This document shows, in pieces, positions 3,788-56,470 of a stretch of DNA of 64,000 bases (position 1 is the first letter of the stretch; each line of letters begins with the position of its first letter). Below the pieces are notes generated by a model. That model was given only the letters and a program-made list of their open reading frames with translations, ran no database searches and was not told where the DNA came from. Source of the stretch: Candidatus Peregrinibacteria bacterium RIFOXYB2_FULL_33_20 (GTDB lineage Bacteria; Patescibacteriota; Gracilibacteria; UBA1369; GWF2-33-10). The stretch is from the NCBI GenBank assembly GCA_001788835.1, contig MFXK01000013.1, positions 18,922 to 82,921 on the forward strand. Reading direction: 5' to 3'. The position numbers and the translations under genes are program-made.

Positions 3788-3906
3788 AACAAATCGATCT
3801 TTCTGTTGAAGAATTTTTGAAGATTTATTGAAAATTTTCAGTTTTTTATGTATGTAACATTGAAGAGGTTAAAAATATATTCTTTGGTTAATGATTTCTA
3901 TCGGAT

Positions 3907-3935: not shown

Positions 3936-3960
3936 GTAAATAGTTTTTGATATTTATAGT

Positions 3961-7707: not shown

Positions 7708-7825
7708 AAATAGAATATTAGTGAATAATTTTAATGTTCAGGTTGCATTATCTATTTATCAGTATTTCTGTTAAATTGTAATATTATTTTGGAATATGGT
7801 AAACGAATTTTTACTCGTATTTTGA

Positions 7826-7854
7826 TTGACAGGTTAGCGTGATAATGCTACACT
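7826..7854 (+). promoter_or_regulatory. Putative sigma-70 promoter
   Basis: TTGACA (7826-7831), 17-nt spacer, TACACT (7849-7854), upstream of the ATG at 7879. Confidence 0.45.
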
Positions 7855-7878
7855 ATTAAATAATCTAAATTTATAAAT

Positions 7879-8355: not shown

Positions 8356-8388
8356 AATAAATAAGGATAAGGAATGATAAAAATTAAT

Positions 8389-9834: not shown

Positions 9835-9860
9835 TAGGGGGAAAATTTTAAATTGAGGAG

Positions 9861-9965
9861 AAAAAGGGTGAAGGTGTGAAGGATGTAGTCAGTAGTCGGT
9901 AGTCAGTTCGAACTGACCACTGACTACTGACTACCGACTACCGACTACCGACTACCGACTACTAC
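9861..9965. repeat. Dispersed repeat with large inverted repeat and GACTACC tandem array between leuC and cysS
   Basis: gtagtcagtagtcggtagtcagtt-cg-aactgaccactgactactgactac (arms about 24 bp, nearly perfect), then (gactacc)n. Related to 14285-14430 and 22486-22645. Confidence 0.85.
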
Positions 9966-14291: not shown

Positions 14292-14430
14292 GAGGGGAGG
14301 GAAGGTGTGAAAGTGTGAAGGAGGAGGAAAGAGGATGTAGCCAGAAGTGAGTAATCAGAAATCAGTTCAAACCGATTACTCACTACCGACTACCGATTAC
14401 TTTCTCAGTTCTCAGTTCTTAGTTCTAATT
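14285..14430. repeat. Second copy of the GTGTGAAG / TCAGTTCGAACTGA dispersed repeat family, immediately upstream of folA
   Basis: gaaggtgtgaaagtgtgaagg...ccagaagtgagtaatcagaaatcagttcaaaccgattactcactaccgactaccgattac. Confidence 0.8.
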
Positions 14431-32004: not shown

Positions 32005-32035
32005 AAATCCCCCGTTTTTTTAGGGCGGGGGATTT
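32005..32035 (-). terminator. Intrinsic terminator after the giant-protein operon
   Basis: aaatcccccg/cgggggattt perfect 10-bp stem; T-run on the minus strand. Confidence 0.9.
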
Positions 32036-32051: not shown

Positions 32052-35000
32052 TTATCTTGCCACATCAATGAACTGAGTCTGGTCAACAAAATCAGTTAAG
32101 CCTGGCGGCGTATTGAGCATTACTCTGTTATCATAAATGATTTTAACATTAGCACCGTCAGCCATAGGGTTACCGATGTAAAGTCTTGTATTTAATAAAT
32201 CTTGTATGTCTCCAAATACTGAACCATAGATCCTTAATTGTTTTGTTGAATCATTTCCATGGTTTGATTGTATTTTACCTCCAATACCTTCGTCATTGCT
32301 GGAGACATAATATACACCAACTATGTCAGTTACATTTGGACTTATTAACACATTTCCTCCTATGACTATGAAAGCAACTGAAGGGATTTTTCCATATTCT
32401 GAAGATGAATTTTGGGCATAACCTAAATTTTTGTTTATTATAAGATTTCCGCCTCCTTCAACAATAAATGTATATGCTCCGTCTTGGAAGAAAGATTGAG
32501 TTGTTGGTGATAAAATTAAATTACCGCCATCAGTTTTTCTAAATATTTTTCCATTTGAATCAGCGTTGTTATTAAGCATAAGCAAATCATCCAAAGTTTC
32601 AATTGTTAGATCTTTATTGCTTTCATCTAATGTGTTTAGATTATTATTATTCTTTGCAGTTAAATCAATATTTTCAGTTATTTGTTCTGAAATTTTTTCT
32701 GGTATCCATGAATCAAGAATTGTAGTTTTAATTTCACATAAGAAACTTGAGAAATTAGAAATGATACTTGAATTGTTTGCATCACTATCGCATAAAGAAG
32801 AAGTTTTATTTTCTGCATCCATTCCAGCGGAAATTATTTCTTCTTTATTAACTTCAGGGCTTATTGCCAAACCAGTAGTGTTTCTACTTTCATCATTAGT
32901 TAAACAAGACAGATCAGCTCCTCCTTCAATAGGTGTATATAACATTACATCTCCGCTATTTCTTGTAATCAAATATTTGCATAGACCATAAAGGACAGCA
33001 TCGTCTTGTAATTCTTTTGTATCACCTTTAGGACTAGTTGATACTGAATAAGCATAATTTATAAATTCTTCTGCTCCGCAATTTTTATCATCACAGCTAT
33101 ATGCTCCAAGTTCAAACGCTCCTTGATAAATAACGATAACAATATCTTCTGGTTCAACATTTAGGAATTGAGTGCCATTTGGGCTATAGATGGTTGTACC
33201 AGCAACATGACATAATGTTTGTGTACTTTCATCTATTTCTGCTGTATCAGGATTATCTGTTTGACAATCTTCTATTTTATTTCTTTCAAAATCTCCTTCA
33301 ATATATTCACCATGGAAATAGTGTTCTGTTGAAGAGTTATATTTTATCCATGGATATATATAATCTCCGGTTGTTTTATTATTGCTATAGCCTAAAACTT
33401 TTCCATCAGAATTACTGTATGTGCAGTTCTCATAAGTACAGCTTTTACCAATATCATCTGTGATTGTTATTTCATTATATTGTGAATTATTATTCCAATA
33501 TGTGATTTGATAATTGGCATGATCATCTTGTTTTGGAAGATATGCAACCTGTGTTCTGTTTGTGTTCATTATTGCAGTTTTCTCAAGTAATGGATTTCCA
33601 TATTCTGGTTCTTCATGTCCTCCACCAGTTGATACTTTTTTCGTACAAGTACTTTGGCAAGTACTTTGACTTGTTCCATTTAAACTACCATCATCGCATT
33701 CTTCACCTGTATCCATGTTGCCATCGCCACATATTGGACCAGATGGAGGAGTGCTACCTCCAGTACTTGTTTTAACATGACATGATCCATCACAGTTTGG
33801 ATTATAACCTTCCTGACCTTCTGTTGCGGCATAATCACATTCTTCCAAAGGCTGTAATTTTCCATCGCCACAACCTGGAGTAGGATTGCCTCCATTTCCG
33901 CCAGAACTTTCTTGTGTTACTGTTATATTTGCACTGCAATAATTTTCATCTACTACTGAAATAGTGATAATATCTCCAGCTTTTGGATTATGATATGAGA
34001 CAATGAAGCTGTATAAAGCAGTTTCTTGATCTCCATTGATTGAAACCTCAATAGGGTTGCCTTGTATTAGGTTTGTTGTTTGAGTGATTGATTCATATGG
34101 ATTTTGGAAATAACCTGTTCCCGTTGAACTGAATTTAACTTTGCCTGTCCATTTTGAACTACTTACCTTCAGAGTGGCATTAATGTTTACTTCAGTTGTG
34201 GCATCATTTGCCGTAAGGGTTATTTGATTATCAATAGTCAAACTTGAACATATTATTTTATTATAACATGCATCAATAGTTAGATCATCTGTTTCAACCA
34301 TACTTACAGTTGCAATACCTGTTAATGGATTAGGATTTGAGTCTATAGTTGTATCAGTCCCTTGATTGGCTTTACAGAATCCATAACCTTGGATTTCATC
34401 AAATTTAACACAGTATTTTGTATTTGGACTAACGTCAAAATAATAATATCCAGGTTGTCCATTTGTTGGATGATTGGCTGTAGTTGTTGTTGCAATTGGA
34501 GATTTACTATAATCACAAACACCATTTGCATCACCTTGGTATAAAGCTACATTTATATTGTTTATACCTGGTTCTGATGAGCTTTGAATGTAGTCACCAT
34601 TATCGATCCATACGAAATCTCCAAGTATTAATGGATTTGCCAAAGTATCTTCGAATAAACATGTTCCTTTAGTTACATTAGGAGTAGCGGAACTACCATA
34701 TTTAATATATAAAGGATCTGTGTCTGATGAATGAATTTGTATTGTATAATCAGCTTTAACTCCTTCAATTTCTACAATAATTGGATATTCAGTTAAATCT
34801 GTTATTTGCATTGAGCATGAAGGGCCTAGTTCACATTGGGTAATGATATTTTCCTGGTCATCTTTGAACTTAATGTTGTTAACATCAACTAGATTTTTTG
34901 GATCACTAAAAATTTCCACCCATAGTTTTCCCGTCCAATTATCTGGATCTATGGAATTAATTGAATATTTAACAATATTATCTTGAGAAATGTCTCTATC

Positions 35001-38000
35001 TGTTGCAATAATATCAATTTCTTTACATATTAATGCAGGGACAATATCTTGATATGAACATCCATTATCATCACTTTTTATATTTATTTGATAACCACTT
35101 TGTACCCCAGTCACTTTTACTGTTATTGGTAAATTACTAGTAGTTGTTTGAAGAGAACATGTAGTTGCAGTATAACCACCCATTGGATCCATTGGATTTG
35201 GTGGAATATTGCCGGTGCATGTTGTTTGATTGATTGAATTTTTTATTTCAATCTTGTCATAGGGGACTAATAATCCTGCATCGTCAGTTACACTTACCAT
35301 TATATTGCCCGACCAACCTTCTGGGTTTATTTGATTGATTTGATACTCAACAGATTGTTCTGGATCAGAAATATCGTTATTTATTATTTGGGTCTCAAAA
35401 TTTTGGCATATTAAGGCTTCCATTTGGCAGATAGAGTTACAGGTATCGCCATCAATATTATTGCCATCATCGCATTGCTCTTCTATTTGAGTAGTTGAAA
35501 TGTCATCATTTATCACTCCATCACCACAATAATTGAAAGTTAATTCATCAAAACAAACTTGATCTTCACCATCAACATAAGCAGAAATTTTGAGAGGTTT
35601 ATGATTTAAACCATCTTTATTAAGAGTATAATCAACAGAAGATTCACTAATATATTTTGGACCTGAAGCGAATTGCACTTCAGTTACTGTTGGGTCTAAT
35701 GAATCAGAAGGGCTGAAAGAGCCATTAGAATTGTTATCATTAAATTTAATTAACCCCTTCCAGTGAATATTAGAAACTTCAAGGAAATAATTAATTTTAA
35801 CAGGATTATTTAAATTTTTCAGATACGAACCATTAGGCATACTAATATCAAGATTCATACAGGCAATAATTTCAGTTTCGCAAGTAGCCGAACACCCATC
35901 ACCATCAATATTATTGCCATCATCACATTGTTCTGAATAATTAGGTGATTCATACATTTCACTGTCACCGCAATATGAAAATGTTTTTTCATCATAACAT
36001 AAATCGGTTGAACTTGTGTTATCAGCAGAAATTTTTACTGGTTTATGATTGGCACCTGTTAAATTAATTGTGTAATTCACAGTTCCGGTGCTTTCTAAAC
36101 CTTCAGTTTGAAAAATATTAGATGGAGTAAAAGTACCATTAGCACCATTATCAGTAAATGTAATTGAGTCTTTCCAGAAATTATTTGATCCATTTAAATA
36201 ATAAGTGATTGGCATTGTTTTAGTTGTATCAAATATATATGAGCCATTAGGCAATACTATATCTAAATTTGTACAAGCTAATATTTCAGTTTCGCAAGTT
36301 GTAGAACAACCATCACCATTAATATTATTGCCATCATCACATTGTTCAGTTGGCATGCCGGGAATTAGATTTTCTTGGATGGTACCGTCGCCACAATAAT
36401 GAAAAGTTAAATCATCAAAACATTTAGTTTCTTCATCAATTATGTATCCCTTAATATATAAAGGGGCATGATTAAGAGCTTCTTGGTTGATGGTATAATT
36501 GACAATTTCATCAGTTGTAAGTCCTTGGACTTGAATTGTATCTGATGGTGTGAATAAACCATTAAAGTCATTATTTTCAAATTTATCTTCAAATTTTGCT
36601 ATACCTTGCCAATTTTCACTAGAACTTTGAATGAAATAATTAATAGGAACAATGTCATTTAAATTAGTAAGATAAAAATTATTAGGCATGGTTAAATCAA
36701 AATTTTTGCATTCTTGGATTTCAGGTGGAATAGTCTCTGTTATTGCACATGTGTTTACATCAGCATCATAATCACTTGTATAAATATTAATTGTATCTAA
36801 AGGATGTATTCCAGTTATATAAACAAAAATGCCATAATCAGGATCATATTTTACGTTTTCCATAGTACACTTGGAAACATTCGAACAATTTTGATCAGGT
36901 TGTTTAAAAGTTTGAATAATAATTGAATCTACTGCTTGTGAAACTTCTACAGTAAGACCGCCTGACCAAGTTTCTGGGTCTATATTGGTAATATTATAAA
37001 CAATGTAGGCAGGATCAGCGGTTAAATCTTTGTAGCTTTCAAAATCAAAATCTTTACAGACGACTTCTACTTCTGGAGTTTTTGTACAAGTATTATCACA
37101 GCCATCACCATTAATATTATTGCCATCATCACACTCTTCAGAAGGTTGATTTATTATACCATCACCACAAATAGGTAAAATAGGTAATTCGCAAGAATTT
37201 GAACAGCCATCATCATCAACAGTATTGCCATCATCACATTCTTCAGGTGGTTGTCTTATACCATCACCACAACCATTAATTATATCTGTATAAAAACAAT
37301 CTGTTTTATTATCTGTTGGATCTTCAACTCCACTATCAGCAGTAGTTGAGTCATTATCTCTTATATTTATTTTGTAATTTGTTTTTACTCCAGTTATTGT
37401 TACATTAATTGGTAAAACTACAGAACTGTTATATGCGAAAGTACAAGTATTTGTTGCAGTTCGTGGACATAAACTTTTTGAATTTTTGTCATATGCTGTG
37501 ATTGTTGTCCCTGTTGCAAGTGATCCTTTATCATTGAAAACTTCAATTACAACATTACTTGCCCAATTTGCTGGGGTAATAGAATTAATTGTGTATTTGA
37601 CTGTTGAGCCATTTGAAATGTCATTATCAACAACAGATACATTGATATCCTGACAAACTGGTATTGGTGTAATTGTACAATTATTTTCACAGCCATCACC
37701 ATTTGTTGTATTAGCATCATCACATTGTTCAGTGCCATTTATTGTTCCGTCACCGCAATACTGGATTTTTATCGTATCAAAACAAACACCTGTATCATTT
37801 ACTGCATCAGATGTAATTTTTTGTTCTTTATCTTTACCTATATATCTTCCGTCATAGTTTGGAGTGAAGGTAAGTTGTGTTAGAGTTGGCTCAGAATCTC
37901 CTATAGCGAATGAGGCGGGAATTATAGTGCCATTTGTTGTTGTATTCTTAACTATATCTGACCAAGGATATCCTTCACCATCAGTTTCAACATAATATGT

Positions 38001-38933
38001 GTATGTTGTAGACGAATCGGAAATATAAACGCTTGAAACTTCGTGGTTTGATTCTAGTAATTTTAAGCTTGTACATTGACATGGTTCAAATGTACTAGCC
38101 GCTGTGTTGTTTGTATCTATAAACCATTTGTTATTTAAAGGTTTCGGTTCTGGCCATGTGTTAGGGTCATTTACATATTGATAATATTGTTTATATTGAA
38201 CTTGAAAATTTGTTTTTAATAAAACAGAATCTGTATATCCTGATTCTGGATGCATATAAATAAGCTCTGCCCATTGTCTGCATGAAGTTTTTACCGTGTT
38301 TGAATCAGATCCAAAGCATGTATCATCCCAAGTTGAACTATTGTTACTATTATAACCATATACAACAGGTTGGTTGTTAGGAGTTTTAGTCCCATATACC
38401 CATTCAATAAATGGTGTGCCAATATTTGTTAAACCGTCAGAAGACGTATAAGGACCACTTGGTGTAAAGTTAGCATAAATAGTAAGTCCACCTCTATGAT
38501 ATACATCTGTTTGAGTATATTCTATCAATTTTGTTAAACCAGATTTACTAGCTGTTAATTTTGATGGGTCAATAAATTCTAATTTGGTTTCTTTTTTGCC
38601 ATTTATATCAACATCAATGGTAGTGATTTTTAATCTTTCTGTATCAACTTGATTTATAAAATTTTTATCAAATTTAAGTGCGTATCTATTAAGATAAGTG
38701 TAATAATTGTATGTTGTATCACTTTTCCCTGAAGTGTCTTCAAAAATATGTTTATGATAAGCAAAATATTCATCTTCAGTACAAGCAATAGTTTGGCTAC
38801 AACTTGAAGAATCTGTTCCACATGTTGAGGAAACAGAGGATGCTGGTGTGGCGGCATAAATGATTATCTGATTTATGAATATACCAGCTATAATTCCTAA
38901 TAAAGAAAGCAGAATTTTTTTTGTTTTTATCAT
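32052..38933 (-). CDS. Giant secreted multi-modular Cys-rich surface protein (2293 aa)
   Basis: N-terminal signal 'MIKTKKILLSLLGIIAGIFINQIIIYAATPAS'; eight CGDG...C(D)DG...DGC...C repeats (DUF4215/Myxo-type) alternating with about 110-aa beta modules; an SdrD_B-like module 'LGDFVWIDNGDYIQSSSEPGINNINVALYQ'. Confidence 0.9.
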   Translation of the reverse strand: MIKTKKILLSLLGIIAGIFINQIIIYAATPASSVSSTCGTDSSSCSQTIACTEDEYFAYHKHIFEDTSGKSDTTYNYYTYLNRYALKFDKNFINQVDTERLKITTIDVDINGKKETKLEFIDPSKLTASKSGLTKLIEYTQTDVYHRGGLTIYANFTPSGPYTSSDGLTNIGTPFIEWVYGTKTPNNQPVVYGYNSNNSSTWDDTCFGSDSNTVKTSCRQWAELIYMHPESGYTDSVLLKTNFQVQYKQYYQYVNDPNTWPEPKPLNNKWFIDTNNTAASTFEPCQCTSLKLLESNHEVSSVYISDSSTTYTYYVETDGEGYPWSDIVKNTTTNGTIIPASFAIGDSEPTLTQLTFTPNYDGRYIGKDKEQKITSDAVNDTGVCFDTIKIQYCGDGTINGTEQCDDANTTNGDGCENNCTITPIPVCQDINVSVVDNDISNGSTVKYTINSITPANWASNVVIEVFNDKGSLATGTTITAYDKNSKSLCPRTATNTCTFAYNSSVVLPINVTITGVKTNYKINIRDNDSTTADSGVEDPTDNKTDCFYTDIINGCGDGIRQPPEECDDGNTVDDDGCSNSCELPILPICGDGIINQPSEECDDGNNINGDGCDNTCTKTPEVEVVCKDFDFESYKDLTADPAYIVYNITNIDPETWSGGLTVEVSQAVDSIIIQTFKQPDQNCSNVSKCTMENVKYDPDYGIFVYITGIHPLDTINIYTSDYDADVNTCAITETIPPEIQECKNFDLTMPNNFYLTNLNDIVPINYFIQSSSENWQGIAKFEDKFENNDFNGLFTPSDTIQVQGLTTDEIVNYTINQEALNHAPLYIKGYIIDEETKCFDDLTFHYCGDGTIQENLIPGMPTEQCDDGNNINGDGCSTTCETEILACTNLDIVLPNGSYIFDTTKTMPITYYLNGSNNFWKDSITFTDNGANGTFTPSNIFQTEGLESTGTVNYTINLTGANHKPVKISADNTSSTDLCYDEKTFSYCGDSEMYESPNYSEQCDDGNNIDGDGCSATCETEIIACMNLDISMPNGSYLKNLNNPVKINYFLEVSNIHWKGLIKFNDNNSNGSFSPSDSLDPTVTEVQFASGPKYISESSVDYTLNKDGLNHKPLKISAYVDGEDQVCFDELTFNYCGDGVINDDISTTQIEEQCDDGNNIDGDTCNSICQMEALICQNFETQIINNDISDPEQSVEYQINQINPEGWSGNIMVSVTDDAGLLVPYDKIEIKNSINQTTCTGNIPPNPMDPMGGYTATTCSLQTTTSNLPITVKVTGVQSGYQINIKSDDNGCSYQDIVPALICKEIDIIATDRDISQDNIVKYSINSIDPDNWTGKLWVEIFSDPKNLVDVNNIKFKDDQENIITQCELGPSCSMQITDLTEYPIIVEIEGVKADYTIQIHSSDTDPLYIKYGSSATPNVTKGTCLFEDTLANPLILGDFVWIDNGDYIQSSSEPGINNINVALYQGDANGVCDYSKSPIATTTTANHPTNGQPGYYYFDVSPNTKYCVKFDEIQGYGFCKANQGTDTTIDSNPNPLTGIATVSMVETDDLTIDACYNKIICSSLTIDNQITLTANDATTEVNINATLKVSSSKWTGKVKFSSTGTGYFQNPYESITQTTNLIQGNPIEVSINGDQETALYSFIVSYHNPKAGDIITISVVDENYCSANITVTQESSGGNGGNPTPGCGDGKLQPLEECDYAATEGQEGYNPNCDGSCHVKTSTGGSTPPSGPICGDGNMDTGEECDDGSLNGTSQSTCQSTCTKKVSTGGGHEEPEYGNPLLEKTAIMNTNRTQVAYLPKQDDHANYQITYWNNNSQYNEITITDDIGKSCTYENCTYSNSDGKVLGYSNNKTTGDYIYPWIKYNSSTEHYFHGEYIEGDFERNKIEDCQTDNPDTAEIDESTQTLCHVAGTTIYSPNGTQFLNVEPEDIVIVIYQGAFELGAYSCDDKNCGAEEFINYAYSVSTSPKGDTKELQDDAVLYGLCKYLITRNSGDVMLYTPIEGGADLSCLTNDESRNTTGLAISPEVNKEEIISAGMDAENKTSSLCDSDANNSSIISNFSSFLCEIKTTILDSWIPEKISEQITENIDLTAKNNNNLNTLDESNKDLTIETLDDLLMLNNNADSNGKIFRKTDGGNLILSPTTQSFFQDGAYTFIVEGGGNLIINKNLGYAQNSSSEYGKIPSVAFIVIGGNVLISPNVTDIVGVYYVSSNDEGIGGKIQSNHGNDSTKQLRIYGSVFGDIQDLLNTRLYIGNPMADGANVKIIYDNRVMLNTPPGLTDFVDQTQFIDVAR

Positions 38934-38961
38934 TTTTGTTTTTTTAAATTTTTATTTATTT

Positions 38962-41900
38962 TTATTGAGGTCCATTAGTTGGATTGACACCGTCACCTGG
39001 AGTAATTGTTGTTGTAGCACCTGGATCTCCAGTAGTTCCGCCGACTTCACAATTGCCTGCTACTTGACCTTCGATTACTGTTGTTGGTGGAGGAGGTGCA
39101 AATGATTGGTTTAGTTTAACCATCCCTCCGACTGCAAATTGTTTTGCTTGGATTTCTGCTGACTGTTCGGATAATTCATGGATAGTTTCTTGGTTGCCTA
39201 CTTTGCCAGCTATAATCCTAGCGTCAGGTTGTAAACTAATGCCAACTCTCTTGTAATATATACCGCCTTTTTCACTGATAGCAGTGGAAAGGTTGGTGCA
39301 TGGAGAGAAGATAACAAACCCGCCGGAAGCATCTGGCTTCAAATAATATTCATAACCATTGGTAGTATCTTTGACTTTTAGCAGTGTTTCATATTGAACA
39401 TTTAAATTTTCGTCTACAATTTCGGCATCAGTGATTTTGCTTATTTGATAATGCTTGCTTGGGTCTGTTATTGAGCCATGATTTTCAACAGGAACAGACT
39501 TTATATCTAATGTTTCACAATATCGATACATTTCAATAATTGATCTGAAGCTTTCCAGAGCTTGATTATAAGAGGTAAGTTGTTCTTCCGTAATTCCATT
39601 TGAGCCATATAAGTTTTGATTAATATTTTGTCTGTAAGCTTCTTGATTTAAGTGAGGTTGATAAAAAGTTTGTCTTAAATTTTGTAAATTTTGTAAGATT
39701 TGACCTTCTGTGCCGCTGTGTTGAGGGATGAAATATTCTAGGAAATCAGATACGGAAGAGGTAGCGCTGAGTTTCGCTCCGAGTGGAGAATTGAAAGTAT
39801 CAAAAGCGAATTTTTCCATTTCATATTCTTTTCTGATTTGATCGTAATTTGTGATCGTATTTTTGTATTTATCCAAAATATAACTGAATAACACATCATC
39901 AAGCGGTTTGTCCAAAAGTGATCCGTGATTATATGCTTTCAAAATTTCGTTTAACGATGGTTCTGTTTTTAACTTGATGGCAATATCCATCACATCGCCA
40001 GCGCTAGTAATAGATTTATCTGCCATTAAAGCCTCAAGTTGAGTATTAAATTCAGTTGTTTTTTGAGCAATATTCTGGTTATTGAATGCTTGCAGAGTTT
40101 CAGAGGAAGTTCTGTCCAGTCTTGAGGTTCTTAATTCTGGAGTTTCTGGGATCGGACTTAAGAAATATAAGCAGGCATCATTAATGGTTTTGAAGTCAGA
40201 GTCGCCTGAATCTAGCCATAGTTTCTTGTAGTTATCGCTGAATATGAATTTGGATAAAATATCCGGATCAGTGTGGATCAATGTCCTAGCGCCTGATCGG
40301 CTGTATCGATTATTTTTAACACTGGTGGAAACGATTGAATCCCAATCTGGATCACTGGTATTGAGACCTAATAGATCAACTTGCATATTTGGGCTTTTGG
40401 TCTGAATAAAAGTGCTTAATTCAGCCATGGCCGCCTGCATTTCGGTAGATAAAGGGTCAGCGTAAGAAGTGATTTTGAGGACCTGAACATTTTCTACTAA
40501 TTGCATGTAAGTTTCCAAATCTTCTGAATTGGCTTGTTTTAACCAAGCTTTTAATTTGGATTGATCTGATCTCAAGACTCCAGTGATTTTATTTAAGACT
40601 TTCTGAGCTAAATCATTCGCTTGAGCTAATTTTTCACTCTCTTCCAAATTAGCAATGCTTGGATGATTAAGCATGATGTTGACTAAGAATTTGCCAGCGG
40701 TGGTGTAGTTGCCTTCAGAAGTTTTTAATTGTAAATCCCCAATTGCTCTATCATACATATCAGATAAATTATATTGTTCCCCAAATTCAGGATTTTCTTT
40801 ATTTTCTTTTGCGATGGTTGGATTGTTGTCTAACCTGTTTACTAATCCAGGACACTTGGCAGGAATGAACTTGGTTGTTTGTCTTAAAGTGTAGTAAACA
40901 ATATAAGATAATAGATATTCTCTTTCTGCCGCGGTTGGATATCTACCATTGTTATATTCATCTTTTAGCAGTGAATTAGATTTAATTGCTTCATTTAGTT
41001 CAGATATAAATCCTGGATAATTGTATAAAACATCCATGATTGTTGATGGATCGTAAGCATCAATGTTATGAATATCAATCATGGTATCAGCAAGAACTTT
41101 GTCGATATTTATTAAGCCTTTTGCTTCAGGCAAGAACTCAAGCCCGTGTTTGTCTTTTGTTCCAACCAAAGCAGGAGTCATTAATCTAAGGTCTTTCTTC
41201 TGTTGATCAGATAACAATTGATATTCTATAAATTTTTTGTCGATAGGGAATTGATGATCTTCATTTGGAGTGAGGTATTTGGCAAGATCATTCACTCTTT
41301 GCTGGATTTGGCTGAATGCTTCAGGATTATTTAGGCTAAATGCTTGTTTAAGATTATAAAGTTGAATCTGTTTTATTAATTTGGCTTCTTGTTGCCTTAG
41401 GGCGGTAATTCCTTGCTGATCTTTTTCACTAGGGTTAGCTTGATTAATTAATTTTTGTAGTTCAGATTGAACCTCATCTAAAGCTGTTTGATCGGTGTTT
41501 GATGGAGGATCTATTAAGCCTAGTTTTTCTTCCAGCAATAAGTGATAGATAGTTGGCATACGAGCGATAAACTGATCTCGATTTTGTGATAAATAATTTT
41601 GTAATCCAGCTTCCGTGTACTCGCAAGAATTTAAATTTTGAATAAGTTTATTTTTGGCGCCGAATTTGATAACGGCGTAAAGAATTTTGTCAAATAAAGT
41701 TTTAACTGAAGTTAAATTATCAGCTGATTTATAAAATTTTTCTACAGATTTGAAAATGCCGGTAGAAGCCAAAGCTTCATAAACTTGAGAGCCGAGTAAC
41801 TCATTGACATAAGTTGGGAGAGATTTTTTTGGATCAATCTTGTTAGATTCATTCGCTCTAAAGATTGTGCTGATTTGATCGCGTGAAGAGAAATTAATGT

Positions 41901-47900: not shown

Positions 47901-50900
47901 CGGCAGTAGTTGGTTCAACTCGACTTTGATTAGGGCTAAATTCATACCAGCTGTAGGTATTGCCTAAGCCATAAAGAGTGTAGTTCTCATGATTACTTGG
48001 TTCTCTATTTAATGGGTAAGCGATATCGTAATATTCTTCTGATTCCTGAGTGCTAATGTCGGCTTTGTGAGCGAATATTTTTCGGAAAACATTAAGCAAA
48101 AGATAAGCGTTTTCTAAGAATAAATTAGTTTTTTCATAACGATCAGCGATTTCTGTAATGTAGCATCTGCCTGCTTTGATTTCTTTTTGGGTGGAAATTG
48201 GCAATCTGCCATAATCAATACCGCAAGCTTTTAGTAATTTTACTGATTTTTTGAAGTTTGTTGGGTCTGGCTTAAGGCTTAATTTTTTTAATTCTTCCAT
48301 GATGGACATTCTTTCTTTGAATTCCGCGACTGGACTGGCTGTTCTTTCCAAACCATCCCAAATGCCACGGAAGAATCCTGATGATCCTTGCAAAGAATTG
48401 AATCCAAGCAGTAATAAATCATTGAGCTCGATAGTATTGTTATCGCCGCGGGAAATAATGCTTGGTAATTGATTGAAAGACAAAAACATCTGATCAGCAA
48501 TGGCTTTGATATTTTGGCCAAAATTCGCATATTGAAGATTTTTTTCAAATTCTTCTCGGGCTTGTCTTCCCACTCGCCCCCACTGGTCAAACATTTCTCT
48601 TGGCACGGTAATTTGTCCGTAAGTATTGTCAATTAATCTCATCTTGGTAGTAAAGCTCGTAGCCTCAGTGCCATCATATTCTTGCTCTAAGAATTTCAAA
48701 GCAGGACTGCTGGTGAGAAGATTGTTAGCTTTATCAAGTCGGTATTGGTAGTCAGGGACTTTGGCGGCCAAGATGTCTGTTTTTTGTCTTTGCAGATCAG
48801 CTATATCAAATTCTAGTTGTTGAATGGCAACATAACCATCGCCATAAACACCATAACTTTGCCATTGAATTAATTGTTTTTGTTTTTCTAGAATTTGAGA
48901 GTCTAGCTCTTCTAATTCTTGTTGATTAGCTTCAGAGAGTTGAGTGGCGTGTCCAGCCTCGACTTGAATAGTATAAATTTCTCTCAATAATTGAGTCACA
49001 TCTTGTTCTGATCGGAAAGCTTTTTCCTGGAGGCTTGCTTTTTGGTCTGGTGTACCAGCTCTTAGGTCAACTTCAGGTGATTTAGCTGGTTGTCTTTGAG
49101 AAATATTTAATTGTTCAGCGAAGAAAGATTGTGCCTGTGGCTTGAATTTTGGAATATTAATACGTAAATTATCTTCGGCGGCAATGTCTAAACTTTGCAT
49201 GCCGATTGTTGAGCCTAAGGCAGTGCTATGCATAGCATTGTTAGCGCAAACTAACCTTAATATTGTCTTACCTAGCTGTTTATCTTGTTCGTTTGGATCT
49301 GGATATTTGCTTGCTAGCATTTCTTTGTATGTTGCGTATTCAGGTATGCCTGTAAATGTTTGGTCTAAGCCTTTGGCTACGCTTTGAGCTAAAGCTGAAT
49401 TTTTTTCTCCGGATTTAGCTTTTAATGTTTCTGTAGGTGAGATTTTGTAATTTTCACCTTGTGCGTCAATAGATATAATATAATTTTCATCATGATAAAT
49501 TTCTTTATAAGATTCTGGTGTTGTATCTAAACCGAATGTTTTGGTGTCTAAAGCTTGTTGTGCTTCAGTTGACGCCCGTCCTTCATATCTTGCCCAAGCG
49601 GCATCTAATTCTGCTTGTAAAATGTCTCTTACTTTTCGTGAAGGGATTTCATTAGTCTCTAACTCTAAAATCCAGTCAAAATCATAGAAGTCACCGTCAG
49701 GTCCTCTGAAAAAATGCTCAAGCGTTTTCTTCTTTCCTTTATCATCAGTGAGTGTGTTTCCTAATTTATTAATATCTGGCTCACTTAAATCTTTTTCGAT
49801 GGATAAAATCACTGTTTTAGCCAATTGATATTTTGAATTAAGAAGATTATCTGTCACTTTTATTTTTTGTTCTTTTCCTTCTGAATCTTTTATTATTTTA
49901 TAGCCTCTTTTGAAATCTTGAATTTGGGTTTTTTCTGTATCAGTAAGATATTCTGAAAGCGTTGATTCTAGTCCTGGGAAATAGCTTCTGTTGTTATCAG
50001 CTTCATATGTGAGTATATCCCATGAAAGACTGTTTGGAGGTATTATTTGAGCTTCAACGCTTAATCCTTGAGTTTCCATTTCTCCTTGTTTTTCTGGTTT
50101 AGTTTCTTGCGTGGCCGGCATTGATAATTGTACAGTTTGAATATCTGCTGGTTGAGTCTCAGGAGAGAAAATCTGAATATTCTGGAAAAATAGTTTTGCA
50201 TATTCTGTGACGTCAAATTGATATTTTTTTTCTTCATTTTGAGTGGCGGTAATATCAAATGAAGCGGTTTGATAATCTTGATTATCTAAAGCAGTGAATT
50301 TTACTGAGGCTCTGGTTCCTTCCAGTTTTATTCGTACAAGAATTGGTGTTCTATTTGTTTCTCGTAAGACGCATTGCCAAGGCTGATTTTCAGAAATATT
50401 TTGTTCCACGCCAACTTTTGCGTTTAATATTGTAAAACTGGCATTGGCTAGGCCCTGAGCTGTTATTACCTTGTTAAGTTCGTTATGTAAAATGTCAGGA
50501 TTTGTGCTTAAATTAATACTAGGCTGATTTGATTGGAAAGCTTGAGAGAGTTGTTGATCAAGATCTATGCTTGTCATAGATACAGGAGCTGTAGCTTTAA
50601 ATTTTATTAGTTGAGTTCGACCAATAACACCAGAATTGGCTAGATTTTCACCATAAGCAATGGTTAGTCGGCTACGATTTGTATTTAATTCAAGGGTGTT
50701 TAATTCTTGCCATTTCAAAGCGTAGGCAGTGAAAATTTTATATTTAGCATCATTTGGCAAAGAATCAAAATAGGTCTCATTTGTTAACGCTTTCCAGTCA
50801 ATTAAGTCTGGAGAAGACGCAAGTTGTTGTTTTGCATATTCAAAGCTAATCTCACCTAATTTATTTAATACGGCACTTAGTTGATTTGTATTTGTTGTTA

Positions 50901-53900
50901 TATTTTCTAGATCAGATATTTGTTCAATAGTGGTGATAAAATCAGACGGTTTTTGTGATAGATTAGTGGTATTTTCTGCGTAGGTATTAGCAAATGCGGT
51001 TTTTAGTTCATTGTTTACGCTTAATTGTTGTATTTCGTTTTTGTCATTAGTTACTCCTTGCGCTAAAGCAAAATTGTATACGTTAAGATTTTGATTGGAC
51101 TTAATATAATCAGTTAAAGTTTGTTGATGTCGAGGATTATTTTTGTCGAAACCGGTAGATGGAGAGGAAAGTAAATTTGCATTGATAACGGATCCTTCAA
51201 GCGCATGAGTAGCATAATACTGTTGAGCATATGTTATTGTTTCTTTGCCATAATCAGTATCAGGAGATGGACGGAAGGTTGGAGGTAACGCTGAATATTT
51301 ACTAGCATTAAATAAAGATCGTTGAGCTTGTTCCCAGGTCTCCAGTTGAACGGCTCGTTGGACATTTGTTATTGTGGCAATATATTCAGGCGATGTTTGT
51401 AAAGCTGGTTGTTTAGTAGTGAATAGGTAATAAGCTTTTGTTAAAGGTAAGATATCGTTAACATTTGAAGATATCGATACACAGGCTTGGAATTGTTCAG
51501 GTGATATTTTTAATTGCGTATTGTTAAATATAGTTGCAACCAGGTTCTCGTTTTTTATTTCAAACGGATTTAAATCTGTTCTGATACCACCATTCGCATC
51601 AAAAAAGTATTGATTATAAGCTGATTCAATAATATAAGCAGATTTTGCTCTGAATAAAGTTTCTTTTGCTTCGGCTGAATTTTTATCTTGAATTTTTGAA
51701 TATTGCTCCCAATATTTTTGTGTTGAAATATATCTTCGCGCTGAAGGAGATGAAAGAGTTTTAATCATTGAATTTTCTTGAACTGCCGGATTAATAATAT
51801 CTCTTAATGCCTGGTCTTGAGATGAAAGTTTTTCTGTAGATTTTATATTTAATGAGCCAAAAATTTGAGCTAATTCACTTGGATTGAAGTCTTGAGGTTT
51901 GTTTATAATTGGGGCATAGGCACTACCTTCTACATTCAATACAGTAAGTTGAGGTTTAGGATTTGAATCATTTGCTGGAGTGATTCTGATTATTAATGAT
52001 GTTTCATCGCTGAAGTAATAAACTCCTTTTAATAAGATAGTTCGAGGTTTGCTTGTGTCCACTTTAGGCATGTTTCTTAACGCTTCACTCAAATTATCAT
52101 AAGTTACAATAGTTTTTGTTAATAAGTTTTCTATTGCTGTTTGAGCGGTATCTTTGAGAATTTTGTTTTCTTGCTGGTCTTCAATCCCATTGTTAGCAAG
52201 TAATGCTTCTGTTAGTTTGTCTTCACTTGTGTTGCCCTGTTCGAAGAATTTAAGGGCATATTTATCACAATAGTCTTTGTACAAGGCTTGAATTTCTGTA
52301 TCGCTAATTTTCCCCTTTAAAATTTCAAATGGAAAACCTTGATCAAAAGTTCCTGTGATAAGATTTTTTAATTTTTCAGTATATAGTTTGTCTAAAACTT
52401 CATCAATTTTTCTTCCTTTTGTCGTGTCAAGACTAGCAATACTGATTACTGATTTTAATAGTTCATCTAATGTTTTTTTGTCTTTAATATCTTTAAATTT
52501 TTCTAATTGTTCTAATGTTATTTGGGTGAAGCCTTGTCTTAAAATATTATTTCCTTGTGCTTCAGAATCTATTTGTTGATTAAATACTTTGGTTGGAGTT
52601 AAACAGAATTTTGACCAAGTTAGATCTGATTTATTTCCTGAAATATATTTTTCTAAATTAGCTTTAGCTTCAGCAGTTAAACCATTTGTGTCAATTAAGT
52701 TAGAAGCAATTTGAGGTTCTATAATTGTTGCGTCTTGGCGAAGTTTTATTTCATCACTAATTTGGAATCCTTTTGAAGAAGATATAGCTTCTTTATAATG
52801 TTTTTCTGCTATGAATAAAACAAGGGAGGAGCCAGGTACAGTTTCTATATTTTTTGTGAAATTTGGGGCTAAATTAGGATTTTCCCATTGAGCTTCAGTA
52901 ATTTTTTGAAGTAAATTTACATTAAAAGTTTCAAAATCAGCCTTTTCTTGAATTAATGATTTAGCAAAATTTAAAGTTAAAAGTGAATCTAATTGAACAG
53001 AATTCCATATTTCTTCTAATGTTTGTCTTAAATCTACAATTTTCGCAATATTCTCAATTGCAGTTTTATTTTTTTCTATGAATTGATCAAATGTTTCTGT
53101 TGATTGAAGTTTAATTTTTCTATCCTCATCAGTAGTTGCAAGCTTTAGAGCTGGAGATTTATATAATTCTATTGCTGAAGTTACAGCATTATATGAAGTT
53201 TCGAGTTTTTCATATGATGCTATGTCATAATTATTATCAGGTTTTTTAGTTTGTTCAAATTTTCTCATTAAAGCTAGAATTGTTGGATTTTCTATTGTTC
53301 CAAAATTAATTTTTGCAATTAAAGTTTGTGCTTTTTCTGATGGAGTTGGTGGATATAGAGTTAATTTTAATTGTTCAATAATATTTTCTAAATTATCACT
53401 GAAATTAACTTTCTTTTCTGCAAGATATATTTCATATTTATTTCCAGTTGTTTTTGCGAATTTGTATGATTTGCCATCAGGTCCTTTTATCAATATAGAA
53501 TAATTTTTTGCTTTTCTTATAATTGCATCATTTTCTAGTAACATTATCAAAGATTGAAAAGATTCAACACTTGCACGTCCTTTTACAGCATCTTGTTCAC
53601 TGAATTGATGCCTCAAAATTCCAAGATCATTATTAAGAAGTGATGAAAGGGCTTGCTGTTCTCCTTGAATGGTAGTTTCTTTTCCTGATTGATTTTTAAT
53701 TATAAAAGTATCTGTAATTAAATTATCTTGAATATCTTTTGCCATTCTAAATTCTAGAACTTGGCTGTTAGATTGAAATTTTATAATTCTATTCTTTGCA
53801 CGATCTGGATCAAGAGCAAAATTTAATTGAGCTAAAACATCATTATAGTTTTCAATTCTTTCAGGAATATTTACTGAGATAACGTCTGCATCTGGAGCTT

Positions 53901-55587
53901 TGAGTAGTTTTTCTGTTAATCTGTCTTTGAGTTTATCTGTTCTGATACTAATATTCTGCAGAGCATCAGCAGGATTTTCTAATCTGTAAGGCAAATCTTT
54001 ATCAGTTTTTTTCAATATCCAAGTACCATTTGGACAAGAAATAAAGATAGTATATTTAAAATTTAAGCCATAGCGTGCAAATTGAGGTAGGATTTCATCA
54101 ACAAAATTATTTACATCTTTTTGACTATTTAAATTAGTATTGAGAGAAAATCGTTCAGGTTTGTTGAACAACGTTTCCAATGGTCCAGTACTCCACTCGG
54201 GGTTTGCATCGCCGATTTGTATTTGGAAAGCTTTTTGCGGGTGTTTGTAAGCTGCTATTTTGGTAATTTGTATTTGGACATTCTTGCCATTTTTATCTAG
54301 CATATAAAAAGGCAGGTTAATGTCTCGTGGCTCATTTGAAGTCCTTAAATAATTGAATTGCTCCAAGAAAGATCCAACATTTTTATTGGCGATTGATACT
54401 TGCTGGTTAAATTTAATAGTTTCAGGTGTGCCTGGGTAAAGTTCATATAAAAGTTCATCATATAATGATTTTGCCGCATCAATTTTTTTAATTTTTTGAT
54501 TATTGGAAGCGTTATATAAAATTGTGACCTGATCATTTTTTTCAATTCGGAAAAAAGCTTTAGTTCCTGAACGTACAGCTACAAAAGTGAAAGAATATTG
54601 TTTGAATTTAGTTAAAGCACCAATTTGAATACTGGCTTGGCTTAATTCGTCAGGATTTTTGATAGTTGATTTTAAAATATTTGGAGTAGAAAAAACCTCT
54701 CCCAAAGGATCAGCAGTATCAATAACCCGATTTAAATCTGGTCTCCATACTTTGAATCTAGTTGGTAGATTAGGATCAACTTTGATAGTCATAGTGAGCG
54801 CTTTACCCAAAGCGGTGGTGTATTTGATGATTAGTTTTTCATTTTCGAGTTGTATTAATTGGTCTTTAATACTACTCCATTGATTATATAATGATAATGC
54901 GGTGTTGATCGGATCACCTGTAGAGAAATTAAATTCTGGCAGTTTTAAATGTTCGGGTTTTTCGAAGGTGGAAGAGAAGGGAACAGGTTGTGCAGTAGTT
55001 TTATTTGCTGGAGCTTGAGGAGTTGTTTTAACAGACTCAGCAGCAGGTTTAGGTTGATTTTTTACAGGTGCAGAAGTTAGAGCTAAAGGATTAGATTTTA
55101 CATCAAAAACTTTATTAGCAATTTCTTTAGCAGTTTTAACATTTTGAATATTTGGAGATTTATTAGATTTAGCATCATCAAGGGATTGGATAGAGAAATC
55201 GAAAGAAGAGCCTTTAGAAGAGATTCTAACTAAGTACCAATTACCATCGGAAGCTTTAAAGAATCGATTAATATTTTTTTTATCTGATCTAATTTCATTA
55301 TTTATAGCATTTTTAAAAATTTCGGCAGAGGTAGCTAAAAGTTCAGAGAAAGAATTTTGACCAGTGATACCATCCAAATTTGGATTATCACTTCTCGCAT
55401 CCGCAATCCTTCTATCTTTTTCAACTTTTTTTACTCGATCATTGACTCCTTGTTCAATTGGATTTAATTCTGAGCCTCTGCTTCCAATTCCTTCACCTCC
55501 CTCAGCTGGGGAGGCTTTTTCAAACACCAGTTTCTTTTCTGTAAAAAATAAATTTGAGAACAAGAATCTTGCTTTTGTGTTTTTCAT
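38962..55587 (-). CDS. Giant protein (5541 aa), repeat-containing, with coiled-coil segments; unknown function
   Basis: Single uninterrupted 16.6-kb ORF; 28-bp gap to the downstream giant gene; long Q/E/K/N-rich coiled-coil at about 45.7-46.6 kb; no obvious N-terminal signal peptide. Confidence 0.9.
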   Translation of the reverse strand: MKNTKARFLFSNLFFTEKKLVFEKASPAEGGEGIGSRGSELNPIEQGVNDRVKKVEKDRRIADARSDNPNLDGITGQNSFSELLATSAEIFKNAINNEIRSDKKNINRFFKASDGNWYLVRISSKGSSFDFSIQSLDDAKSNKSPNIQNVKTAKEIANKVFDVKSNPLALTSAPVKNQPKPAAESVKTTPQAPANKTTAQPVPFSSTFEKPEHLKLPEFNFSTGDPINTALSLYNQWSSIKDQLIQLENEKLIIKYTTALGKALTMTIKVDPNLPTRFKVWRPDLNRVIDTADPLGEVFSTPNILKSTIKNPDELSQASIQIGALTKFKQYSFTFVAVRSGTKAFFRIEKNDQVTILYNASNNQKIKKIDAAKSLYDELLYELYPGTPETIKFNQQVSIANKNVGSFLEQFNYLRTSNEPRDINLPFYMLDKNGKNVQIQITKIAAYKHPQKAFQIQIGDANPEWSTGPLETLFNKPERFSLNTNLNSQKDVNNFVDEILPQFARYGLNFKYTIFISCPNGTWILKKTDKDLPYRLENPADALQNISIRTDKLKDRLTEKLLKAPDADVISVNIPERIENYNDVLAQLNFALDPDRAKNRIIKFQSNSQVLEFRMAKDIQDNLITDTFIIKNQSGKETTIQGEQQALSSLLNNDLGILRHQFSEQDAVKGRASVESFQSLIMLLENDAIIRKAKNYSILIKGPDGKSYKFAKTTGNKYEIYLAEKKVNFSDNLENIIEQLKLTLYPPTPSEKAQTLIAKINFGTIENPTILALMRKFEQTKKPDNNYDIASYEKLETSYNAVTSAIELYKSPALKLATTDEDRKIKLQSTETFDQFIEKNKTAIENIAKIVDLRQTLEEIWNSVQLDSLLTLNFAKSLIQEKADFETFNVNLLQKITEAQWENPNLAPNFTKNIETVPGSSLVLFIAEKHYKEAISSSKGFQISDEIKLRQDATIIEPQIASNLIDTNGLTAEAKANLEKYISGNKSDLTWSKFCLTPTKVFNQQIDSEAQGNNILRQGFTQITLEQLEKFKDIKDKKTLDELLKSVISIASLDTTKGRKIDEVLDKLYTEKLKNLITGTFDQGFPFEILKGKISDTEIQALYKDYCDKYALKFFEQGNTSEDKLTEALLANNGIEDQQENKILKDTAQTAIENLLTKTIVTYDNLSEALRNMPKVDTSKPRTILLKGVYYFSDETSLIIRITPANDSNPKPQLTVLNVEGSAYAPIINKPQDFNPSELAQIFGSLNIKSTEKLSSQDQALRDIINPAVQENSMIKTLSSPSARRYISTQKYWEQYSKIQDKNSAEAKETLFRAKSAYIIESAYNQYFFDANGGIRTDLNPFEIKNENLVATIFNNTQLKISPEQFQACVSISSNVNDILPLTKAYYLFTTKQPALQTSPEYIATITNVQRAVQLETWEQAQRSLFNASKYSALPPTFRPSPDTDYGKETITYAQQYYATHALEGSVINANLLSSPSTGFDKNNPRHQQTLTDYIKSNQNLNVYNFALAQGVTNDKNEIQQLSVNNELKTAFANTYAENTTNLSQKPSDFITTIEQISDLENITTNTNQLSAVLNKLGEISFEYAKQQLASSPDLIDWKALTNETYFDSLPNDAKYKIFTAYALKWQELNTLELNTNRSRLTIAYGENLANSGVIGRTQLIKFKATAPVSMTSIDLDQQLSQAFQSNQPSINLSTNPDILHNELNKVITAQGLANASFTILNAKVGVEQNISENQPWQCVLRETNRTPILVRIKLEGTRASVKFTALDNQDYQTASFDITATQNEEKKYQFDVTEYAKLFFQNIQIFSPETQPADIQTVQLSMPATQETKPEKQGEMETQGLSVEAQIIPPNSLSWDILTYEADNNRSYFPGLESTLSEYLTDTEKTQIQDFKRGYKIIKDSEGKEQKIKVTDNLLNSKYQLAKTVILSIEKDLSEPDINKLGNTLTDDKGKKKTLEHFFRGPDGDFYDFDWILELETNEIPSRKVRDILQAELDAAWARYEGRASTEAQQALDTKTFGLDTTPESYKEIYHDENYIISIDAQGENYKISPTETLKAKSGEKNSALAQSVAKGLDQTFTGIPEYATYKEMLASKYPDPNEQDKQLGKTILRLVCANNAMHSTALGSTIGMQSLDIAAEDNLRINIPKFKPQAQSFFAEQLNISQRQPAKSPEVDLRAGTPDQKASLQEKAFRSEQDVTQLLREIYTIQVEAGHATQLSEANQQELEELDSQILEKQKQLIQWQSYGVYGDGYVAIQQLEFDIADLQRQKTDILAAKVPDYQYRLDKANNLLTSSPALKFLEQEYDGTEATSFTTKMRLIDNTYGQITVPREMFDQWGRVGRQAREEFEKNLQYANFGQNIKAIADQMFLSFNQLPSIISRGDNNTIELNDLLLLGFNSLQGSSGFFRGIWDGLERTASPVAEFKERMSIMEELKKLSLKPDPTNFKKSVKLLKACGIDYGRLPISTQKEIKAGRCYITEIADRYEKTNLFLENAYLLLNVFRKIFAHKADISTQESEEYYDIAYPLNREPSNHENYTLYGLGNTYSWYEFSPNQSRVEPTTADAAIAIIKKEIYKKHGVTDPKTADAEKRTVAELEFRKLMENPLLMRQKLQEVMGNQKNKTELDRILEVMQKDFAQDKEKYAKELQSAKRKIIEKISGSNDPQKDLKVARTEKLFIELSQKWTYEYYLNAVRQNRIVKERLRMNLKNLENISQIAGDFEGPYGYQDIITQTQTKLDPRLKTEESLGISKQAINKFINGLQSSTNPKISRSIIHYCQNNPDAILRAVAYTAHEDQWLDYGNQMWALSSVKLDSDINAAIASLNPLTQTVLHNMAFGKDIYRVLNDIPDFLMPKLVETIYKNKKCFRTRNPQKLSTSLSEERYAGAPDKDKAKLADILDIHASGPRISLSLARKVGAWLKKEEIEEASYQTSTYATEVRGYGDITADHEALYEFLTHHEGGAIVGFNKSLEQAFISMTIDRQRYIAQEKNKYLEIIRKKTQDINKWQLGLESSDDTTKKDLEEKITKAKKDIQKAQQKITEIDQKYQNKNPDYELETSAGLIGKFCEIWTLKSEEYRKKAIADVQAEISDHHTRLNNLNEQIDQQQTIIDAQNELLDSQFPQTQNMNFEDRIKFIDILKAYNNLSKKDQNKIKTQQDLIESYRQDIDRNLRALKEQKQIFENQQIFINAPNNAGLDEKISDLDKKISPIQSQIEANQSEITALQEQLVPNPTEINRLTKLNNELTTQLTNLKAQKSQLETQKQDVDTAQRDMSKAEKSIQYLQQNITELYCGRANNAEPTASVKTSFIQINEILGVSALDTSFDSSSIIFNAKRADDGTVAFTAPVQLESAMNFLQPIFESTDNNSSSQSTESETSLKDILEALKRAQDQLKSLNKAKNTENSAISALKQEINRIQNSQDSIDNSDRLRKHYDTELQTKLQLFRDDSEDKAINKIQKYFSEHADSRELFDVYSNLKPEEYEVLSRVAAKGTDNLRNIESAKHTIELISESFPEHPEIQESLLKIFEMANSQGQILKTETIWEYAKQLKAYYDKIKKGTPEPDYNAMVDKAFTSKTISKAVKEILPVINNSLINLKLAVNKSFEYFAHYSEDTNGSRRSQIGFSLTETLDNPNIKRIYTAYLPSNLQEKYANGEDPNLNSNKIANDWMDYCELTITDPEQAAQVFNDSPTLQALYTLINEKNALTAIFNQANKIPSPEAKTQYLGGVLFGTVYDYQSSLTEEQYQQLNSCYQIFGQQIPSREQLSQDWCDLRSQLKKDIKENIGTNAGEAWQNLICGNIDILGGLSHLGDLMAFELPTLELGEGPVKFRIKAQAPGLQSIQLNAEGELQLSKKDTLVISAGIATQIRSILSPNGIIGQNPAITPIEFAQAFGLHSGVEYTHAFNENSALSGGIDISAIGVSGHVETKLNAVTLFAKANIGVLGMGGSIGIMRQSLAEEAKKKFDNLQNSTQEYLAETSQNLQKEIQAQLLASSEAQSTLKEPNDAKILAESVTKKAMDLIMQSDETEFKLAMAKKEGPRWRGLEIGWQNGTPYFKILIDFGHKIETFRVFPPEAVSREILDTVTTGKLNRNRDIIAGFGWKISPELEQLQNNAMQRAKHRFSRADLPGVRLSSEGRPVVLASRSVNVGQGLQQKPRSLGSFNSYLDEYNEAVAESGLNFEKNQNCEPNKYEAKMNIQDADNALVEVWIDEPFKQYLRTDGPNFYLSFRSGYTPLISRNTIIYAAKNGGYVKHEIISIRFARIEEVRGFENFAEYLKKQNKKDVINENTANKFKKIGKDLNRLEKKANAKEREYEYPTDIFTYIDTINEDDLSKIFSEYFSFMGITINENEKQGDLKSYLKDKINNYILAISGNRLKDAKDILEESYFAAFYHLMAIESYRRETVPSLDYIMKHSSSYSLQYINGTNQTISDAMDIKNGDAKTEHDTIAAGIDQTTQVNGKSAMERELDLKAKLDLATELKELHTYDQHVIETLRYGGAEKIYEDIESMSVTNREYLLFLQTTAEKYKTDLATDKRKYTQEYFNFIKTKPQDLQETFENYKTFIKDINFSSRDQISTIFRANESNKIDPKKSLPTYVNELLGSQVYEALASTGIFKSVEKFYKSADNLTSVKTLFDKILYAVIKFGAKNKLIQNLNSCEYTEAGLQNYLSQNRDQFIARMPTIYHLLLEEKLGLIDPPSNTDQTALDEVQSELQKLINQANPSEKDQQGITALRQQEAKLIKQIQLYNLKQAFSLNNPEAFSQIQQRVNDLAKYLTPNEDHQFPIDKKFIEYQLLSDQQKKDLRLMTPALVGTKDKHGLEFLPEAKGLINIDKVLADTMIDIHNIDAYDPSTIMDVLYNYPGFISELNEAIKSNSLLKDEYNNGRYPTAAEREYLLSYIVYYTLRQTTKFIPAKCPGLVNRLDNNPTIAKENKENPEFGEQYNLSDMYDRAIGDLQLKTSEGNYTTAGKFLVNIMLNHPSIANLEESEKLAQANDLAQKVLNKITGVLRSDQSKLKAWLKQANSEDLETYMQLVENVQVLKITSYADPLSTEMQAAMAELSTFIQTKSPNMQVDLLGLNTSDPDWDSIVSTSVKNNRYSRSGARTLIHTDPDILSKFIFSDNYKKLWLDSGDSDFKTINDACLYFLSPIPETPELRTSRLDRTSSETLQAFNNQNIAQKTTEFNTQLEALMADKSITSAGDVMDIAIKLKTEPSLNEILKAYNHGSLLDKPLDDVLFSYILDKYKNTITNYDQIRKEYEMEKFAFDTFNSPLGAKLSATSSVSDFLEYFIPQHSGTEGQILQNLQNLRQTFYQPHLNQEAYRQNINQNLYGSNGITEEQLTSYNQALESFRSIIEMYRYCETLDIKSVPVENHGSITDPSKHYQISKITDAEIVDENLNVQYETLLKVKDTTNGYEYYLKPDASGGFVIFSPCTNLSTAISEKGGIYYKRVGISLQPDARIIAGKVGNQETIHELSEQSAEIQAKQFAVGGMVKLNQSFAPPPPTTVIEGQVAGNCEVGGTTGDPGATTTITPGDGVNPTNGPQ

Positions 55588-55801
55588 TTTTGTTTTGATA
55601 GTTGTATATATTCTTGTTATTTTACCAAATTTTAGAGAAATGAGCTTTAGACCTAACTTGTGTATAAAGTAAAAGAGTTGAGTGATATATCTTTAGAACA
55701 GATTTTTTATGTAAAAGTAAAGGAGTTATTTTTTTGTAAATATAAATTTGCAAATTTTTTAAAAAAATTTAATAATCATTTGTGTATGTTAGATAAATTT
55801 T

Positions 55802-56470
55802 ATGAAATTACCCGTCATCATCACCAATTCAAAAAATTATCATACTGGCTATGGTGAGGAAGGAATGAAGATCGTCCAGTTGCATAAAAAAATTGTTCAC
55901 GAATTAGGTATATCTATGGCCGTTGCCGTGCCAATTACAGATGTGCAAAATGTAGCTCGTTCTGTTAATATTCCAATTTTTGCCCAGCATATTGATCCTG
56001 TTGTTGCAGGGAAGGGAACAGGCAGTATTTTGGCGGAAGCGGTGAAAGAAGCCGGAGCATTTGGAACCCTGCTTAATCATTCAGAAAAAAGAATTCCTTT
56101 TGATGTTATTGATGCTTCAATTAAAAGAGCTAGAGAAGTTGGACTTTATACTGTTGTTTGTTGTGAATCTCCAGAAGAAGCTTTTGAAATTGCAAAATTA
56201 GATCCAGATTTAATTGCTTACGAACCACCAGAGCTTATTGGGGGAACTGTTTCTGTTGCAACAGCTAAGCCAGATGTGATTCGAAGAGTTGTAGAAATTG
56301 TTGGAGAAGATCATAAAATTTTGGTTGGAGCTGGAGTGAAGAATGCGGAAGATGTCAGAGTTTCTTTAGATTTAGGTGCTGTTGGAGTTTTATTGGCGTC
56401 TGGTGTTATGCAAGCAAAAGATCCAGAGTGGGTTTTACGAGATTTGGGGAAAGGGATGAGAAAATTTTGA
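55802..56470 (+). CDS. tpiA: Triosephosphate isomerase, archaeal-type (short form)
   Basis: 222 aa; 'PIFAQHIDPVVAGKGTGSILAEAVKEAGAFGTLLNHSEKRI', 'LIAYEPPELIGGTVSVATAKPDVIRRVVE', 'ILVGAGVKNAEDVRVSLDLGAVGVLLASGVMQAKDP'. Confidence 0.93.
   Translation: MKLPVIITNSKNYHTGYGEEGMKIVQLHKKIVHELGISMAVAVPITDVQNVARSVNIPIFAQHIDPVVAGKGTGSILAEAVKEAGAFGTLLNHSEKRIPFDVIDASIKRAREVGLYTVVCCESPEEAFEIAKLDPDLIAYEPPELIGGTVSVATAKPDVIRRVVEIVGEDHKILVGAGVKNAEDVRVSLDLGAVGVLLASGVMQAKDPEWVLRDLGKGMRKF

Follow-up and report, generated by a model that had tools for sequence, protein, structure and literature searches.

Two adjacent giant genes in the window, by which we mean the whole 64,000-nucleotide stretch of DNA that was analysed, are kept as a pair across the order to which this genome belongs, and judged from their sequences there is about an even chance that they form one conserved cell-envelope module of that order, most likely for attachment to cells or surfaces. 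The attachment role is one that we infer for the protein of the second gene, B, from its domain content. A sequence-only reading of this DNA had spoken of a cell-surface, attachment or structural system; the surface protein B and the co-conserved unit stand, but a surface or structural nature of the protein of the first gene, A, is not supported (no export signal, almost no cysteine), and that the pair is a system in the functional sense we only infer.

Both genes lie on the minus strand and start with ATG. Gene A (protein P0002, 5541 aa) occupies positions 38962..55587, gene B (protein P0001, 2293 aa) occupies 32052..38933, and the 28 bp between them on that strand (38934..38961) contain no terminator; in the ORF list and the translations the two frames are intact, with sizes, strand and gap as had been claimed. 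The GC content by codon position follows a coding pattern (0.445/0.338/0.237 in A and 0.410/0.391/0.169 in B), while stops abound in the other two forward frames (380 and 612 over the length of gene A, 151 and 341 over that of gene B). Together the genes take up 1.57% of the genome (an assembly of 1,499,810 bases in 42 contigs), which at 1.5 Mb is indeed that of a small-genome bacterium. Directly 3' of the gene B stop, at 32005..32035 (minus strand), lies an intrinsic-terminator-like hairpin with 10-bp perfect arms, an 11-nt loop and then a T run on the minus strand, by which features the hairpin postulated as a terminator after gene B is real; a terminator scan of the surrounding region found 3 where 2.8 were expected, which is chance level, so the role of the hairpin is supported by its position after the B stop and not by the scan count. 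The stretch upstream of gene A at 55591..55660 (minus strand), AATTTGGTAAAATAACAAGA..., when compared by eye, resembles the AATTTGATAAAATAACAAGA... just upstream of gene A in the sister genome G001, and it is the probable promoter region of gene A.

Outside the module stands the divergent flanking gene tpiA (55802..56470, plus strand), recognised by its sequence and conserved position, which is also the conserved left border of the A-B locus in relatives. Directly after the module, at 29606-31945 (minus strand), a fusion gene joins an alpha-L-glutamate-ligase-like ATP-grasp domain (TIGR02291) and a QEGLA-type domain (TIGR02421), both under the curated cut-offs, and it takes the place where in relatives the usual neighbour, holA, sits. 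Elsewhere in the window, the 3' end of a 16S rRNA is found at 1-303 (plus strand), after which no 23S rRNA or nearby tRNA was detected within the 64 kb, and the rRNA operon looks split. Short GGAATGACA-type repeats occur at 14347-15093, 8801-8830 and 57325, inside or beside coding frames, and in a DHFR-like ORF they encode the low-complexity insert RNDKGDGNDK.

Across the order, 42 genomes had matches to both genes, and in 35 of them A and B share contig and strand and A immediately precedes B. Four of the seven exceptions were opened, and in each the ORF that directly follows A has a signal peptide and is truncated where the contig stops; these four are contig breaks. Most loci keep the order tpiA, A, B, holA, with an A-B gap which is mostly short (about 27-35 bp in many relatives, up to 243 bp). 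Co-conservation of the two genes, on which the sequence-only reading had made its proposal depend, was thus found, although in a few genomes, those of family f14 in particular, B or A went undetected, so the module is not strictly universal. The lengths of A and B also vary together, with a Spearman coefficient of 0.80 over 13 complete pairs (p = 0.001, a statistic that ignores kinship), 0.78 for family medians (n = 10) and a partial value for genome size of 0.68 (n = 12); since the genomes are related, the p-values of this covariation are optimistic.

The protein of gene B is acidic (net charge -196) and rich in cysteine (78 residues, 3.4%), and begins with a signal peptide at aa 1-28 (38850..38933; this and the following coordinates are on the minus strand). 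Copies 1-3 of the DUF4215 / myxo_disulf_rpt repeat lie at aa 393-419, 555-581 and 589-616 (37086..37757), further DUF4215 copies at aa 847-880 and 1136-1169 with a degenerate one between them (35427..36395), a SdrD_B domain at aa 1437-1556 (34266..34625) and the last two DUF4215-like repeats at aa 1688-1718 and 1735-1763 (33645..33872), so that the total is seven DUF4215 / cysteine-rich repeats and one SdrD_B. The signal peptide and Cys-rich architecture ascribed to this protein are thereby borne out. Its C-terminus ends in ...DFVDQTQFIDVAR, with no hydrophobic tail there for sortase (LPXTG) anchoring, and SLH domains gave no Pfam match in B. In neither A nor B was there a Pfam match to the TPS (Haemagg_act) domain of two-partner secretion and filamentous haemagglutinin, a match to the RTX repeats of type I secreted giant adhesins, or any condensation/adenylation or ketosynthase domain of a giant NRPS/PKS (Pfam, NCBIfam); no strong match to a characterised giant adhesin or toxin family was found for either protein.

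The constant part of B is a C-terminal domain at aa 1932-2293 (32055..33140, minus strand). The last 340-400 residues of B find a strong match, usually a single one, in most genomes of the order, and the B protein of the window has this domain, likewise as one strong copy, at its very C-terminus. The N-terminal and middle parts differ between families, other members carrying SpaA_2 or no Pfam domain, and such variable parts joined to a constant C-terminal module are arranged as in a surface protein. Elsewhere in the class, in other orders, the match shrinks to about the last 200 positions of the domain profile, and the carriers there include genomes in which TGA has to encode an amino acid; in the five other-order loci that were opened, the module closes large proteins, most of them with a signal peptide, at their very C-terminus. 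Named genomes with relatives of the domain are Candidatus Peregrinibacteria or Peribacteria, with one exception labelled Nitrospirota. It is by this match and by the common locus that the window's genome is assigned to Candidatus Peregrinibacteria. Pfam, NCBIfam and PDB sequence searches with the domain gave nothing above cut-off, its predicted model is confident only in the last 190 aa or so (mean pLDDT near 60), and Foldseek against PDB and BFVD returned no significant fold match. We suspect that it serves as an assembly or anchoring module. Some loci from other orders also deserve mention: L055 (G107:C38:1-20000) has a tandem array of large ORFs of secreted type, and the B C-terminal domain closes three of them, and in L056 and L057 a large protein is encoded behind a B-type gene, with a pyrE-like gene next, the large protein of L056 matching T4SS coupling ATPases.

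The protein of gene A contains 0.4% Cys and neither a signal peptide nor a TM segment. Searches of Pfam and NCBIfam gave no match above cut-off, only weak coiled-coil-type ones, and a PDB sequence search gave nothing above cut-off either; a coiled-coil-like stretch at aa about 3018-3290 (45718..46536, minus strand) has weak SMC-type matches far under the cut-off. Gene A is accordingly as unannotatable, and as signal-less, as it had seemed at first sight. No internal repeats appeared in self-BLAST of A or of B at E 0.01, and a degenerate repeat of ~100 aa, seen by eye in A at aa 100-765, was not supported, as non-seed matches to its profile were no better than E 0.0065.

A direct protein search with gene A found a match in one same-family genome only, where it is split over contigs, so profiles were needed to establish orthology. 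The gene that immediately precedes B in relatives encodes a large, signal-less protein, as a rule of 1.5-2.5 kaa and in G007 of about 5 kaa; lengths of about 5 kaa are found among A genes in one other family. From thirteen such upstream-of-B proteins of relatives a family profile was built. The A of the window, missed by a first profile search and found by a full-sensitivity search, is matched colinearly at aa 3889-4360 and 5405-5540. The matches score 31 and 20 bits, whereas 100 local shuffles reached no more than 3.7 and the reversed sequence no more than 0.5; hhalign gave 96%. By these colinear matches, far above the shuffled and reversed controls, gene A belongs on sequence criteria to an order-wide family, in which it has diverged and grown in size, and like that family it lies upstream of B and adjoins tpiA. 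The profile matched 45 genomes, all of the window's order, and gave no match in other orders of the class.

Besides a short motif near the N-terminus and a central beta-meander, which are described further on, A has two conserved parts, both on the minus strand. At aa about 4160-4262 (42802..43110) a beta domain, 'VEVWIDEP...ISRNTIIYA...EIISI', matches the family profile, while the C-terminal region at aa 5405-5541 (38965..39375) combines a P/G/T-rich tail with a C-x-N motif (FSPCTN) that is invariant; in the family alignment the residues that never vary, namely an R, a G and this C-x-N, all lie in the C-terminal part. Among the family members compared, the Cys content is 0.04-0.4% in A and 1.4-3.4% in B, and in several A members only one Cys was counted per protein or fragment. 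The gene A of G001 (L016, G001:C55) has an N-terminal extension of about 1200 aa beyond the A of the window and with its other fragments may exceed 6500 aa; an apparent internal TGA in it adjoins a run of N in the contig and is thus most likely an assembly artefact. In another order, locus L069 encodes signal-less proteins at 2644-5439 (minus strand) and 7674-10010 (plus strand), with the N-terminal motifs RFVF / RFINF, and one of the two is directly upstream of a B-type gene; these are possible distant counterparts of gene A.

In the mechanism which we propose, B would be a Sec-exported, disulfide-hardened protein on display at the cell surface, where its constant C-terminal domain would anchor or assemble it. 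A, a non-Sec partner on the cytoplasmic or membrane side, would dock, assemble or hold B, and the size of A may follow that of B because both are parts of one structure. Alternatively, A itself could be exported by a non-Sec route and build an extracellular fibre or stalk together with B, which we consider rather unlikely. The mark of such a route would be an N-terminal [RK][LF][VI][FY] motif, in the window KLVF at aa 19-22 (55522..55533, minus strand), which is strongly enriched in A, being found near the N-terminus of 12 of 15 A genes compared with 6 of 205 other ORFs, a contrast that overstates significance as the motif was picked after viewing the sequences; with the motif-less G001 start included, the count is 12/16, and that start speaks against the route. 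As a proteome-wide sorting signal, the motif was rejected, since among 669 ORFs of G052 it is not enriched (1.05% of N-termini vs 0.89% of internal windows). The P/G/T-rich tail of A would suit export, as would a 778-aa gene from another order, located just before a B-type gene, with a similar N-terminal RFINF motif and a Cys-rich C-terminus, and a common fibre would agree with the covarying lengths. However, Cys is scarce in A and abundant in B, as expected for different compartments, and no RTX, haemagglutinin or other secretion domain is present. It could equally be that A and B are functionally separate and share only a conserved place, with B at the surface and A in the cytoplasm as a giant scaffold or cytoskeletal protein, which is likewise improbable in our view. 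They have no domain in common, and since the wider neighbourhood is also conserved (tpiA, holA, gatA, gatC, ftsX, recO), A-B adjacency alone could be inherited; yet these neighbours are not strictly held, holA being replaced in the window and several relatives having extra genes between B and holA, while A and B have nearly always stayed together, a short gap apart, and separate functions would not fit the covariation of their lengths.

The third alternative, that A is an integral envelope protein and B is displayed through it or on it in an autotransporter- or two-partner-like manner, concerns an amphipathic beta-strand meander at aa about 3796-3950 (43738..44202, minus strand), which has the highest strand density in A and lies at the homologous place where the other family members have their beta region. 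In most A members, the density of amphipathic strands peaks at this one homologous place, in the window at aa 3821-3950, where there are 8 strands in 130 aa, although this only equals the best of 20 shuffles. The predicted model gives 8 adjacent hairpin strands, and many of the top Foldseek matches (PDB, BFVD) are outer-membrane barrels (intimin, NanC, KdgM, porins, TOM40); none of them is significant, however (best E 1.1), and the mean pLDDT, near 60 for the model, is about 45 in the meander. The strand pattern and this low-confidence model are suggestive of a barrel, but A has no signal peptide and CPR bacteria are not known to have a classical outer membrane; we consider a membrane-inserting barrel quite unlikely. 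A more elaborate version of the attachment module, which we hold to be decidedly unlikely, would make A and B two halves of an order-specific, envelope-spanning apparatus, in which a Sec-independent giant A, marked by the new N-terminal motif, inserts its beta-sheet or barrel and docks a disulfide-hardened B rod of matching length, with the B C-terminal domain as a class-wide anchoring module. The conserved envelope module with A on the cytoplasmic or membrane side and B on the surface is the reading that we prefer.

Most Peregrinibacteria are uncultured, and their giant proteins have so far been counted without a family or function. With the present analysis, what was a lone giant ORF becomes part of an order-wide locus of two genes, defined by conserved elements that can be named: in B the C-terminal domain, and in A the N-terminal motif, the beta domain and the C-x-N motif. 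If the B C-terminal domain is an anchor, it would be a marker of surface proteins across the class, including lineages with recoded TGA. In the open-licence literature we found no description of the A family, the constant C-terminal domain of B or the paired locus.

The B half is not wholly undescribed, since for Candidatus Peribacter riflensis large Cys-rich exported proteins with Myxococcus-type repeats and a proposed attachment role have already been published (Anantharaman et al. 2016, PMC4736985). Gene B agrees with that type in being over 1000 aa and Cys-rich, with a signal peptide and Myxococcus-type cysteine repeats, whereas the passages on those proteins mention neither a partner gene A nor a conserved locus of two genes, and the A profile was not found outside the window's order. 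A UniProt survey placed Candidatus Peregrinibacteria among the bacterial phyla most enriched in proteins over 5000 aa (PMC11573180), and no COG could be assigned to their huge proteins; gene A likewise exceeds 5000 aa, but the survey's passages on these proteins describe no family, locus or partner. In Apilactobacillus kunkeei, with a genome of 1.5 Mb, consecutive genes (Giant1-5) encode extracellular proteins of 3000-8000 aa (PMC12863079); as presented there all five are extracellular, while here A lacks an export signal and has a single surface protein as its partner. Like the SdrD_B / Cna-B-type adhesins of Gram-positive bacteria, B is modular and secreted and has one SdrD_B domain, and a relative has SpaA_2; unlike them, it has no hydrophobic sortase tail at the C-terminus and ends in the constant domain instead.
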